From contig QHVV01000011.1 of NCBI GenBank assembly GCA_003222385.1, positions 1 to 47,101 of the forward strand: a DNA stretch of 47,101 nt. Direction: 5' to 3'. The notes under the pieces were generated by a model that saw only the letters and a program-made list of their open reading frames with translations, had not been told where the DNA came from and did not search any database. This DNA comes from Acidobacteriota bacterium (GTDB taxonomy: Bacteria; Acidobacteriota; Thermoanaerobaculia; UBA5066; Gp7-AA6). Of the stretch, positions 37,610 to 41,154 are shown piece after piece. A program made the position numbers and the translations under genes. Numbering within the stretch: the first letter of the stretch is position 1; every line of letters begins with the position of its first letter.

Positions 37610-38272
37610 TCAGCCCTTCGGCGGAAATCTCTTCGCGAGCCAGGCCTCGACCTCTTCGGGGTGGTACCCGAACGGCCCGGGCTTGCCTTTGAAGACGATC
37701 GTGCCCTTCTCGTCCACGATGTAGAAGCGCTCGGGCCAGCCGGCGTAGAGCTGGTTGGCCCGGTTGTCCATGCGGTCCACCGCGAGCGGCACGTCGTAGT
37801 GAAATCGCTTCGCGAAGTCGTTGGCGATCGCCACCCGCTGCGAGAGCGTGCGCGGCTGCGGATAACAGACGCTCTCCTTCTCGTTCGATTCCATCTGCCA
37901 CTCGTCCAGAGGATGCGCCTCCTTGATGTAGATGGTGAGGAACCGGGCGCGGTCGCCGTACTCCCGGTACATCTTCCCGACGCGCTCGACCGAGCGCCGG
38001 AACGGCGGTCAGGTGTAGCTGCCGAAGACGATGACGAGCGGCTTCTCGCCGATCGCGCTCGCGATCCGGACCGGAGTGCGGCCGTCCAGAGAAACGAGGG
38101 AGACGTCCGGCGCGGGGACTCCGACCCGGAGGTCCCCCTCGCGGCGCTGGTCGTACCGCAGCATTCCGAAGACGTTCCGCGGTCCGATGACCCAGAAGAG
38201 CGCGGTCACCGCGAGGACGACGACGATCGCGAGGCCGAGCAGCGTGCGGCGGACGACCTTCCTCACGTTCAC
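37610..38272 (-). CDS. Iodothyronine deiodinase-like selenoprotein (in-frame TGA read as Sec, U88)
   Basis: 220 residues if the TGA at 38009-38011 is read as selenocysteine (residue 88). GTG 38272 overlaps the M16 gene stop as GTGA. The N-terminus is a membrane anchor (RRTLLGLAIVVVLAVTALFW), then a thioredoxin-fold domain: PAPDVSLVSLDGRTP, KPLVIVFGSYT-U-PPFRRS, ARFLTIYIKEAHPLDEW, VDRMDNRANQLYAGWPERFY, FKGKPGPFGYHPEEVEAWLA. The GSxT-U-PPF site, the EAHPxDxW motif and the PER-YV/I segment are hallmarks of the deiodinase family, whose redox centre is Sec. Both sides of the TGA are in one frame and both match the family. A hairpin with a GGUC loop follows the TGA. Bacterial members are redox enzymes of unknown substrate; thyroid hormone is not implied. 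Confidence 0.9.
37982..38011 (-). promoter_or_regulatory. Bacterial SECIS-like hairpin after UGA
   Basis: Reading the minus strand from the TGA (38011-38009), GCGCTC, loop GGTC, GAGCGC form a perfect 6-bp stem (37997-37982). The loop lies at +18 to +21 after the UGA; an outer CCG/CGG pair extends it past a GU bulge. In E. coli fdhF the SelB-binding loop, also GGUC, is at +19 to +22. This geometry supports selenocysteine insertion. Confidence 0.75.
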
Positions 38273-39750
38273 TTCGACTTCTTCTCGACCCCGAAGAGAT
38301 CGTCCACGCTCCAAGTTTTGATCGGCCCCAGGTTCAACGCCTTCACCTCGGACTCGATTTTGCCCCGGTCCCCGACGACGACGACGGCGACCTTCCCGGG
38401 ATCCACGTACTCGCTCGCGACGCGCCGGACGTCGGCGGTCGTGACCGCCCCGATGCGGGAGACATACGTCTGGATCCAGTCGTTCGGCAATCGATAGACG
38501 AACTGCTCCGCCAGCCGGGACGCGATGTCACCGGTCGTTTCCAGCGACGCGGGAAAAGACAGCGCGACGTAGTTCTTCGCCTTCGCGACTTCGGCGTCCG
38601 TGATCGTCTTCCGGATCGCCTCGAGCTCCTTGAAAAATTCGGTCAGCGCCGGGGCGGTCTTGTCCGTCTGGACGGCCGCCGCGGCGACGAAGGGACCGGA
38701 CGACAGCCGGAAGTCGAACCTCGACCTCGCGCCGTACGCGTAGCCGTGCTGCTCGCGCAGGTTCTGCATCAGGCGGGATGTGAAAGAGCCGCCGAGGATC
38801 GTGTTCATGACGGTCAGCGCGAAATAGTCGGGCGTCGAGCGCGGCGGCCCGATCCGTCCGATCCGGATCTCGGACTGCGCGGCGCCCGGCCGGTCGACGA
38901 TCCAGACTTCGCGCCCCGGCACCTGCGGCGCCGCCGGGACTTCGGCCGCCGCTCCCGGGCCGGAGGCTTTCCAGCCGCCCAGGACCTTTTCGAGCTCTCC
39001 CCGGACCGAATCGGCGCCGACGTCTCCCACCACGACGATCGCGGCATCCTCCGGCCGGAACGTTCTCGCGTGGAAAGCGGTCAGATCGCTCCGCGAAAGC
39101 GCGCGCACGGAGCTCTCCGTCCCGACGGTCGCCGTTCCGTAGCGATGGCCGGGGCCGTAGAGAGCGCGCGCGAAAGCGACGGAGGCGATCGCCGCCGGCT
39201 CATCGCGCCACTGGAGAAGCTCGGTCAAACGGTCCTTCCGCACCCGTTCGATCTCGCTGGCGGGAAACGTCGGGCGCACGAGAACGTCGGCGAAGATCGG
39301 AAGGGCTTTGTCGAGCCGCTTGACCGGAACGTGGAGCGCGACGGCGGCGGAGTCCCAGCCCGCTTCCGCCGAGAGGTCCGCGCCGAGGAAGTCGGTCTCG
39401 TCGGAGATCTCGAGCGTCCCCCTCGATCCGGCGCCTTCGTCCAGCATGTCGGCGGTCAAGCTCGCCAGGCCCGGCTTCTCGAGCGGGTCGTTTCCCGCTC
39501 CCGCGCGGACGACCGCGTCGACCTGCACGACCGGCACTTCGTGACGCTCGACCACGAAGACCGGCAGGCCGTTCGAAAGGCGGAGCTCCAGGACGGGCGG
39601 GAGCTTCAAGGGCCGCACGGGCCCGAGAGCCGGAGGTTTCGAACGATCGGGTTTCGAGCGATCCGGCTTTCCGGGAGCCGCTTTCTGCCCGGACGCCGGC
39701 AGCGCGAAGACCAGGAGGGCCAGTGCGACCGCGGGGAGTCCCCGTCTCAC
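38269..39750 (-). CDS. M16 peptidase homologue, non-catalytic subunit type
   Basis: 493 residues from GTG 39750, overlapping the upstream M16 stop as GTGA. Signal peptide RRGLPAVALALLVFALPASG, then a Lys/Pro/Ser-rich linker (KPDRSKPDRSKPP). The two M16 lobes are recognisable: LRLSNGLPVFVVERHEVPVV, GLASLTADMLDEGAG, GDVGADSVRGELEKVLGGW, and the Arg/Tyr element SRLMQNLREQHGYAYGARSR. The zinc motif HxxEH is missing: the equivalent place reads SLTADMLDE. This matches the pattern of M16 pairs in which one partner is catalytic and the other binds substrate (mitochondrial MPP, many bacterial pairs). Periplasmic. It is coupled to both the catalytic M16 gene and the selenoprotein gene. Confidence 0.92.
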   Translation of the reverse strand: MRRGLPAVALALLVFALPASGQKAAPGKPDRSKPDRSKPPALGPVRPLKLPPVLELRLSNGLPVFVVERHEVPVVQVDAVVRAGAGNDPLEKPGLASLTADMLDEGAGSRGTLEISDETDFLGADLSAEAGWDSAAVALHVPVKRLDKALPIFADVLVRPTFPASEIERVRKDRLTELLQWRDEPAAIASVAFARALYGPGHRYGTATVGTESSVRALSRSDLTAFHARTFRPEDAAIVVVGDVGADSVRGELEKVLGGWKASGPGAAAEVPAAPQVPGREVWIVDRPGAAQSEIRIGRIGPPRSTPDYFALTVMNTILGGSFTSRLMQNLREQHGYAYGARSRFDFRLSSGPFVAAAAVQTDKTAPALTEFFKELEAIRKTITDAEVAKAKNYVALSFPASLETTGDIASRLAEQFVYRLPNDWIQTYVSRIGAVTTADVRRVASEYVDPGKVAVVVVGDRGKIESEVKALNLGPIKTWSVDDLFGVEKKSK

Positions 39751-41126
39751 GGCTTCTTCTCGGCCGCCAGCGCCTTCTTCCCCTGCGGCACGACCGAGAG
39801 GACGAGCCGCGCGTCGTCGCGCAGGTAGCGATTCGCGGCGGCCTGGACGTCTCGCGGGTCGAGCGACGTGTAGCGCGCGAGGTCCTCCGCGAAATAGTCG
39901 GGCCGGCCGGCGTAGAGCTCGTACGCGTTCAACTGATCGGCCACGCCGCCGAATCCGCCGACGCGCTCGAGCCCGTTGTAGAACGCGGATTCGATCTGGT
40001 TGACGGCGCGCTCGAGCTCCCGGGCCGCCGGAGGATCGCGTTTCACCTTCGCGAGTTCCTCGACCACGACTTTTTCGATCTCGGACAGACCATGGCCTTC
40101 CCGGGCCGTGACGATCAGCAGGAAGGTGGAGCCGAGCGGGCCGGAGTTCTGGCTCGCCGACACGTCCTGCGCGATCTGGAGGTCGTAGACGAGCCTCTTG
40201 TAGAGCCTCGAGTTCTTGCCGGACGCGAGCACGCGGGAGAGGACGGTCATCGCTTCGTCGCCCGGCGCGAAGGCGACCGGCGACAGCCACGCGAGATAGA
40301 GGCGCGGCAGCTGGACGTGGTCCTCGAGAGTCAGCCGCTTCTCGGAGGTCAGGACCGCGGGGGGCGCGGCGATCGGCGGCACGGCCGCCCCGCGCGGAAC
40401 GTCGGAGAACCACTTTTCGACGAGGCGCCGGGCCTCGCGCGGATCGATGTCGCCCGCGACCACGAGGCTCGTGTTGTTCGGCCCGTACCAGCTCTTGAAG
40501 AACTGAACCACGTCTTCGTAGCTCGCCGAGGTCAGGTCTTCCATCGAACCGATGACGGGCCAGTGGTACGGATGGCTGGGAGGGAAGAGCTCCTCGGGCA
40601 GCTTCAGGAACGCCATTCCATACGGGCGGTTCTCGTAAGACTGACGCCGCTCGTTCTTGACGACGTCGCGCTGGATGTTCACTTTCTCGGGGCTCATCGC
40701 GTCGAGCAGGTAACCCATCCGATCGGATTCGAGGAAGAGAGCCAACTCCAAGGCGTTGGAAGGGACCGTCTCCCAGTAGTTCGTGCGGTCGTTGTCGGTC
40801 GAGCCGTTGTTGTCGCCGCCCGCCGCCTCCAGCCAGTTGTCGAAGTTCCCTTCGGCGACGTGGCCGGAGCCTTCGAACATGATGTGCTCGAAGAGGTGCG
40901 CGAAACCGGTCCGGCCCGGCTTTTCCCGCGCCGAGCCGACGTGGTACCAGGCGCTGACCGCGACCATAGGGACCCGGTGGTCCTCGTGGAGAATCACGTC
41001 GAGCCCGTTCGGAAGCGTGAACTGCACGTAGGGAACGGCGAGCTTTTTCGTCTCCTGGGCGCCGGCCGGCGCAGAGGCGAGAAGAGCCGCCGCGATCAGG
41101 GGGAGGAGGCCGAGGCGAACTTTCAT
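39747..41126 (-). CDS. M16 zinc metallopeptidase, catalytic subunit type
   Basis: 459 residues. ATG 41126 is chosen since it begins a signal peptide, MKVRLGLLPLIAAALLASAP, then AGAQ; an earlier start at 41153 only adds a basic stretch. The inverted zinc motif HLFEH (H77, E80, H81) is intact in GRTGFAHLFEHIMFEGSG, with ELALFLESDRMG downstream supplying the third ligand region and NERRQSYENRPYG after it. The second lobe has SRLYKRLVYDLQIAQDVSAS. It likely degrades peptides in the periplasm together with the adjacent non-catalytic partner. The three-gene operon ends in the deiodinase-like selenoprotein. Its stop overlaps the next start as GTGA. Confidence 0.94.
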   Translation of the reverse strand: MKVRLGLLPLIAAALLASAPAGAQETKKLAVPYVQFTLPNGLDVILHEDHRVPMVAVSAWYHVGSAREKPGRTGFAHLFEHIMFEGSGHVAEGNFDNWLEAAGGDNNGSTDNDRTNYWETVPSNALELALFLESDRMGYLLDAMSPEKVNIQRDVVKNERRQSYENRPYGMAFLKLPEELFPPSHPYHWPVIGSMEDLTSASYEDVVQFFKSWYGPNNTSLVVAGDIDPREARRLVEKWFSDVPRGAAVPPIAAPPAVLTSEKRLTLEDHVQLPRLYLAWLSPVAFAPGDEAMTVLSRVLASGKNSRLYKRLVYDLQIAQDVSASQNSGPLGSTFLLIVTAREGHGLSEIEKVVVEELAKVKRDPPAARELERAVNQIESAFYNGLERVGGFGGVADQLNAYELYAGRPDYFAEDLARYTSLDPRDVQAAANRYLRDDARLVLSVVPQGKKALAAEKKP

Positions 41127-41154
41127 CCTGGGCGCAATTTCACGCCGACGCATT

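Follow-up and report, generated by a model that had tools for sequence, protein, structure and literature searches.

A deiodinase-like protein of an acidobacterium with an internal UGA that is very probably read as selenocysteine

Introduction

On the minus strand of a 47,101-nucleotide stretch of DNA from a soil-type acidobacterium (contig QHVV01000011.1; the window), two short open reading frames follow one another in the same frame, parted by a TGA. This raises the question of whether the locus holds two genes, one damaged gene or a single gene whose UGA is decoded as selenocysteine (Sec), and of what its product may do. Standard annotation would break or drop the deiodinase-like gene described here in the genomes that carry it, with the internal UGA misread as a stop.

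Results

One reading frame with one internal TGA

The minus strand from 38272 to 37610 forms a single frame, and the sequence and its translation have the TGA at 38011-38009 as its sole interruption. The start codon is GTG at 38272-38270, with a second in-frame GTG at 38266 as an equally possible start, and after the internal TGA the frame stays open up to the TGA at 37612-37610. The first-pass annotation had described two minus-strand frames (38272-38009 and 37972-37610) belonging together. We confirmed that they share one frame and lie 12 codons apart after the TGA, and the motifs named there (FGSYT-U-PPFRRS, EAHPLDEW, DRMDN, PERFYIV and GYHPEEVEAWL) are all found in the read-through translation. 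The gene and its putative Sec codon are delimited as follows.

37610..38272, minus strand: predicted gene for a deiodinase-like selenoprotein of 220 aa with Sec88; start GTG at 38272 or 38266, stop TGA 37612-37610 (from translation, PF00837 and equal-length homologues with TGA at the same site)
38009..38011, minus strand: in-frame TGA, predicted to be read as Sec88 in the motif GSYT-U-PPF (from TGA in 58 of 58 covering loci and five in-class genomes, and TGC/TGT in distant homologues)

The 220-residue read-through product scored 139.9 bits against PF00837 (T4_deiodinase; gathering score 27) over residues 45-215. This match runs across the TGA with E=1.1e-40, and about 60 other loci carry a TGA at the same site, which argues that neither the frame nor its motifs arose by chance. 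The best PDB sequence matches in a phmmer search were mouse DIO2 (9h48, 6e-26) and DIO3 (4tr3, 2e-25), and the TGA codon aligned with the active-site residue of both.

A predicted deiodinase-type fold behind a membrane helix

An AlphaFold2 model built with 34 homologues (pLDDT 92.6) consists of a helix at residues 3-29 and then a thioredoxin/peroxiredoxin-type domain.

38186..38266, minus strand: predicted N-terminal transmembrane helix, residues 3-29, signal anchor (AlphaFold2 helix; hydrophobic N-terminus in most homologues)
37619..38140, minus strand: predicted thioredoxin/peroxiredoxin-fold catalytic domain with Dio-type loop insertion, residues 45-218 (VIA Z, Foldseek)

Structure comparison of the predicted fold gave a VIA Z of 23.6 to DIO2 (9h48) and 23.5 to DIO3 (4tr3), the next entry reaching 16.9, and a Foldseek search likewise placed deiodinases (Dios) best (E 4e-17). 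The Dio-type loop insertion is present, and the phmmer alignment has no gap in this loop relative to DIO2. The equivalog NF038285, "deiodinase family protein", was considered as an assignment and rejected: the score of 194.8 lies below the cut-off of 250 (E=2.7e-57), and only positions 177-340 of the 347-position model were matched, the first 176 being absent.

Membrane anchoring, which had been claimed from the first reading, agrees with the predicted helix and with the hydrophobic N-terminus of most homologues. The positive-inside signal is not clear-cut, as basic residues lie on both sides of helix 3-29. Several planctomycete homologues (L092, L093, L096 and L100) have lipobox-like N-termini, which would support an extracytoplasmic position of the domain.

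The fold also bears on whether the UGA is a real stop. Were it one, the locus would encode two proteins, the second starting from an internal ATG at 37972, and both halves are in fact open frames of more than 85 codons. However, the PPFR that directly follows the UGA is invariant in the family and would belong to no second protein, and such a split would cut the thioredoxin fold within its active site. We therefore give the two-protein reading next to no credence.

The TGA is conserved among relatives

GTDB species genomes were scanned with two peptide patterns, EAHPxDEW and YAGWPER, both of which lie outside the TGA site. It found 60 loci, spread over Acidobacteriota, Planctomycetota, Myxococcota (among them three cultured Polyangium strains) and Gemmatimonadota. 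The site is covered in 58 of these; each of the 58 has TGA there, and a Cys codon occurs in none. The gene, again with a single in-frame TGA, is also present in five genomes of the same class, two from the same family (G001, G002), one from the same order (G006) and two others (G038, G052); this set overlaps with the pattern scan, in which some of the 60 loci come from the same genomes as G001, G002 and G038. When 396 genomes of the phylum were scanned for PF00837, each of the 16 top matches had a single TGA; in more distant or weaker subfamilies this column holds TGA in some members and TGC/TGT in others. Alternation of Sec and Cys at an active-site column is a classic sign of a selenoprotein. 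The question raised earlier, whether homologues carry U, C or TGA at this site, is thus answered by TGA in all close relatives that cover it and by TGA or TGC/TGT in distant ones. Moreover, protein conservation runs through and beyond the TGA across homologues. A search of phage records for homologues gave no match, and plasmid records yielded one distant homologue of the Cys type.

These data also address the possibility that a sequencing error or nonsense mutation turned TGC/TGT into TGA in a Cys-type gene, leaving an artefact or pseudogene. The genome is indeed a draft in 231 contigs (3.6 Mb, 95% complete), but the homologues that cover the site, which stem from many studies and phyla and include isolates, all have the same TGA, and the downstream frame is conserved. 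The homologues' TGA excludes this explanation for practical purposes.

The scans also brought up variant forms of the family. A divergent deiodinase-like subfamily (L026, L031, L040) has the motif SAT-U-QPGF with an in-frame TGA at the aligned site, and further PF00837 subfamilies with an in-frame TGA (L135, L132, L128, L129) carry SFT-U-PYCG, a UxxC form, AIT-U-PPYR or SYT-U-PPFRRRAAA. Homologues L113, L117 and L120 read GSCT-U-PPFRKKIGD, with Cys two residues before Sec as in DIO3, and a GAAGATC-GGY-GATCTTC hairpin follows this site. Three genomes (G296, G310, G380) have 3 to 6 PF00837 matches each, TGA and stop-free forms together, an expansion within one family (f70). One homologue (L104, 5603-6203) has two additional in-frame stops downstream in its best frame, and this gene is broken or misassembled.

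The genome carries selenocysteine machinery

The first-pass annotation had implied that this organism can make selenoproteins and had proposed a search for selA, selB, tRNA-Sec and selD. All four were found, with the caveat of a frame change in selD of this draft. A tRNA-Sec with a UCA anticodon lies on contig C104 (73.6 bits), and SelA (E=2.6e-116), the SelB winged helix (E=5.5e-18, at a locus whose beginning is truncated) and SelD (E=4.3e-74) are encoded in the same genome; a tRNA search of the window itself gave none. selA is present in 98 of 101 relatives, and selenocysteine use therefore appears general in the lineage.

The selD gene (L011, G000:C76, 1528-2537) is a selenoprotein gene itself, with an in-frame TGA at its own N-terminus in the motif G-U-A-C-K-I. 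Its frame change near 2115 is either an assembly error or real damage. A second tRNA-Sec (L002, G000:C72, 1497-1597) sits on a 3655-base contig whose open reading frames look actinobacterial by eye; it may come from a contaminant in the draft assembly and not be a duplicate gene, and was left out of the evidence.

An altered code or a suppressor tRNA could instead insert Trp, Cys or Gly at the UGA without any selenium, and alternative UGA-decoding tRNAs are known in some bacteria. Against this stand the canonical tRNA-Sec with its UCA anticodon together with selA, selB and selD, the fact that the gene's own terminator is TGA, and Cys at this site in distant homologues, which points to Sec. We consider non-Sec decoding very improbable.

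A covarying hairpin follows the UGA

Downstream of the UGA, within the coding sequence, a candidate SECIS element was located.

37975..38002, minus strand: predicted bacterial SECIS hairpin, upper stem GCGCUC 37997-37992 / GAGCGC 37987-37982, loop GGUC 37991-37988

Published bacterial SECIS elements have a loop of 3-9 nt, an upper stem of 4-16 bp, G in the first two loop positions, a spacing of 16-37 nt and an MFE <= -7.5 (PMC13188914). The hairpin at 38002-37975 falls inside every one of these limits, with 17 nt from UGA to loop, a 6-bp upper stem, a 4-nt GGUC loop with G first, and an MFE of -15.6 kcal/mol. An Rfam search of the window gave no match. The folding energy is not unusual for this GC-rich sequence (z -0.10 for the window hairpin); the mean z was -0.74 against synonymous variants and -0.31 in control windows. 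Since energy was uninformative in this GC-rich sequence, hairpin position and covariation were used, and the support for a SECIS is thus comparative.

Covariation was scored in 29 distinct relatives with the A-G-loop hairpin type, a set chosen by loop letters and not by pairing. Across the six stem pairs, 90.2% of cells were paired, with changes on both sides in five of the six pairs. The covariation score was 0.401 against 0.105 in shuffles (0 of 500 reached it), and structures slid by 1-3 columns scored clearly lower. Joint variation of the stem pairs is also seen in the GGUC group to which the window's hairpin belongs, where, for example, one pair occurs as G-C, C-G and T-A. At this site, 31 of 54 distinct sequences have a hairpin of 6 bp or more with a G in its loop, where 5.9 were expected from synonymous shuffles; these are related sequences and not independent events. 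Stem sequences differ between groups, and the loop GG holds a constant distance from the UGA. The SECIS data clearly illustrate how an RNA signal can shape the sequence of a gene, in that stem sequence and encoded residues change together.

A Dio-type active site with two replacements

Residues F83, G84, S85, T87, U88, P89, P90, F91, R92, Y115, E118, A119, H120 and P121 are invariant in the 34 homologues, as are D123, W125, P140, R146, P180, R182 and others. A resolving Cys was sought in the same 34 sequences, and no invariant cysteine other than position 88 was found. The relay proposed for Dio2 comprises Ser127, Thr129, Tyr157, Glu160, His162 and His182, with Trp167 stacking on His162 (PMC11592359). 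By the phmmer alignment, S85, T87, U88, Y115, E118, H120 and W125 correspond to Dio2 Ser127, Thr129, Sec130, Tyr157, Glu160, His162 and Trp167 (PMC11592359). The second relay His (Dio2 His182) is not kept, being Pro140, which is invariant in the 34 homologues. The basic clamp (Dio3 Arg275 / Dio2 Lys241) is not kept either: it is Pro198 here, and Met, Asn, Thr, Glu and others, mostly non-basic, in homologues. The active site is thus of the Dio type, yet, with Pro140 and Pro198 in the places of His and Arg/Lys, two features tied to thyronine deiodination are missing.

A true reductive dehalogenase, with a selenolate that accepts a halogen atom (I or Br) from an aromatic substrate in the manner of animal Dios acting on iodothyronines, would account for DIO2 and DIO3 being the closest solved relatives and for the retention of UPPF, of a loop insertion of Dio length and of most proposed proton-relay residues. 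However, the invariant Pro140 in place of the relay His and the mostly non-basic residues at the clamp position speak against it, and thyroid hormones are not expected in bacteria (PMC1088965). We regard this activity as unlikely, though the strongest of the alternatives weighed here.

Neighbouring genes

Two peptidase genes lie upstream on the same strand.

38269..39690, minus strand: M16 peptidase gene directly upstream, its stop overlapping the GTG start as GTGA (PF05193 E=1.1e-37)
39747..41153, minus strand: second M16 peptidase gene, upstream of the first (PF05193 E=4.2e-31, PF00675 E=3.1e-15)

Coupling to this M16 pair had been put forward in the first-pass annotation. The 4-nt GTGA overlap with the M16 frame ending at 38269 is real, but a conserved partnership was not supported. 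That the selenoprotein and the pair form one functional unit would fit the overlap and one other locus (L084, 29-2441), the sole other one at which M16 peptidase genes lie directly upstream of the deiodinase-like gene. No M16 genes were found beside the other homologues: L047, from the same family, retains the M20 and amidohydrolase genes and has a two-component system at the position of the M16 pair, and in one acidobacterial group the gene instead follows inorganic pyrophosphatase-like and KDO-synthesis-like genes (names from sequence reading). A functional unit is therefore improbable. PADLOC returned no match.

Discussion

The locus very probably encodes a PF00837 deiodinase-like protein in which UGA 38011-38009 is decoded as Sec, as judged from sequence comparison. 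The core claim of a deiodinase-family selenoprotein in a selenoprotein-competent organism survived every refuting test that was run, through the sel machinery, the TGA shared by all covering loci and the covarying SECIS.

We propose that SelB and tRNA-Sec would decode this UGA under the direction of the hairpin a few bases downstream within the coding sequence. The N-terminal helix would hold the protein in the membrane and place the thioredoxin/peroxiredoxin-type domain outside the cytoplasm. There, the Sec88 selenolate may attack an electrophilic substrate in a pocket formed by Ser85, Thr87, Tyr115, Glu118, His120 and Trp125, as in animal Dios. As no resolving cysteine is conserved in the family, an external thiol would then reduce the resulting Se-X or Se-OH intermediate. 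The most likely function is that of an extracytoplasmic, thiol-dependent selenol reductase, and the redox role taken alone is moderately probable. The substrate is more likely to be a peroxide, a disulfide or a small halogenated compound than iodothyronine, which is unlikely because neither the relay His nor the basic clamp residue of the Dios is present and a conserved resolving Cys is lacking. "Deiodinase" is here a family name and not a demonstrated activity. The clade includes cultured Polyangium isolates, so the role of bacterial deiodinase-like selenoproteins becomes testable.

Membrane-anchored thioredoxins such as ResA and TlpA and the peroxiredoxin AhpE have the thioredoxin-type fold in common with this protein, and ResA-like proteins are also anchored and exported. 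However, their Z of 16-17 lies below the 23.6 of the Dios, and the present protein has a Dio-type loop insertion and no CxxC. The resemblance to NF038285 is confined to model positions 177-340, the preceding part of that model having no counterpart here.

With animal DIO1-3 (9h48, 4tr3) the protein shares about 34-35% identity, the fold, the UPPF motif, most proposed relay residues and an N-terminal membrane anchor. It differs from them in having Pro for the relay His and no clamp Arg/Lys, and its SECIS lies within the coding sequence, whereas that of the animal genes lies in the 3' UTR. The bacterial clade reads SYTU or SFTU, with no Cys two residues before Sec, where animal Dios read SCTU. 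A 58-row tree placed the mouse DIO2 and DIO3 among bacterial Sec forms rather than beside Cys forms, with weak support, and AU tests did not reject other placements of the animal Dios (p-AU 0.16-0.37). A further reading, in which the UPPF clade is a Sec-only family that strips halogen from organic compounds outside the cytoplasm and the animal thyroid deiodinases descend from such a bacterial selenoenzyme, is improbable.

Bacterial deiodinase-like selenoproteins have been known since 2005, when a Sargasso Sea set contained four Sec and six Cys forms with bacterial SECIS elements (PMC1088965), and the finding is less new than the first-pass annotation implied. Shared with those proteins are PF00837, Sec at a thioredoxin-type site, a SECIS in the coding sequence and Cys homologues elsewhere. 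The family motif is given as UxxC in reviews of 2022 and 2026 (PMC9312934, PMC13188914), and the latter states that little is known of what most such proteins do (PMC13188914). The present clade, with UPPF (UxxF), is set apart by that motif listing, and no Cys form turned up among its close homologues. What the present comparison adds is an UPPF clade that appears to be Sec-only, spread over four phyla, without a conserved resolving Cys and close to the animal Dios.
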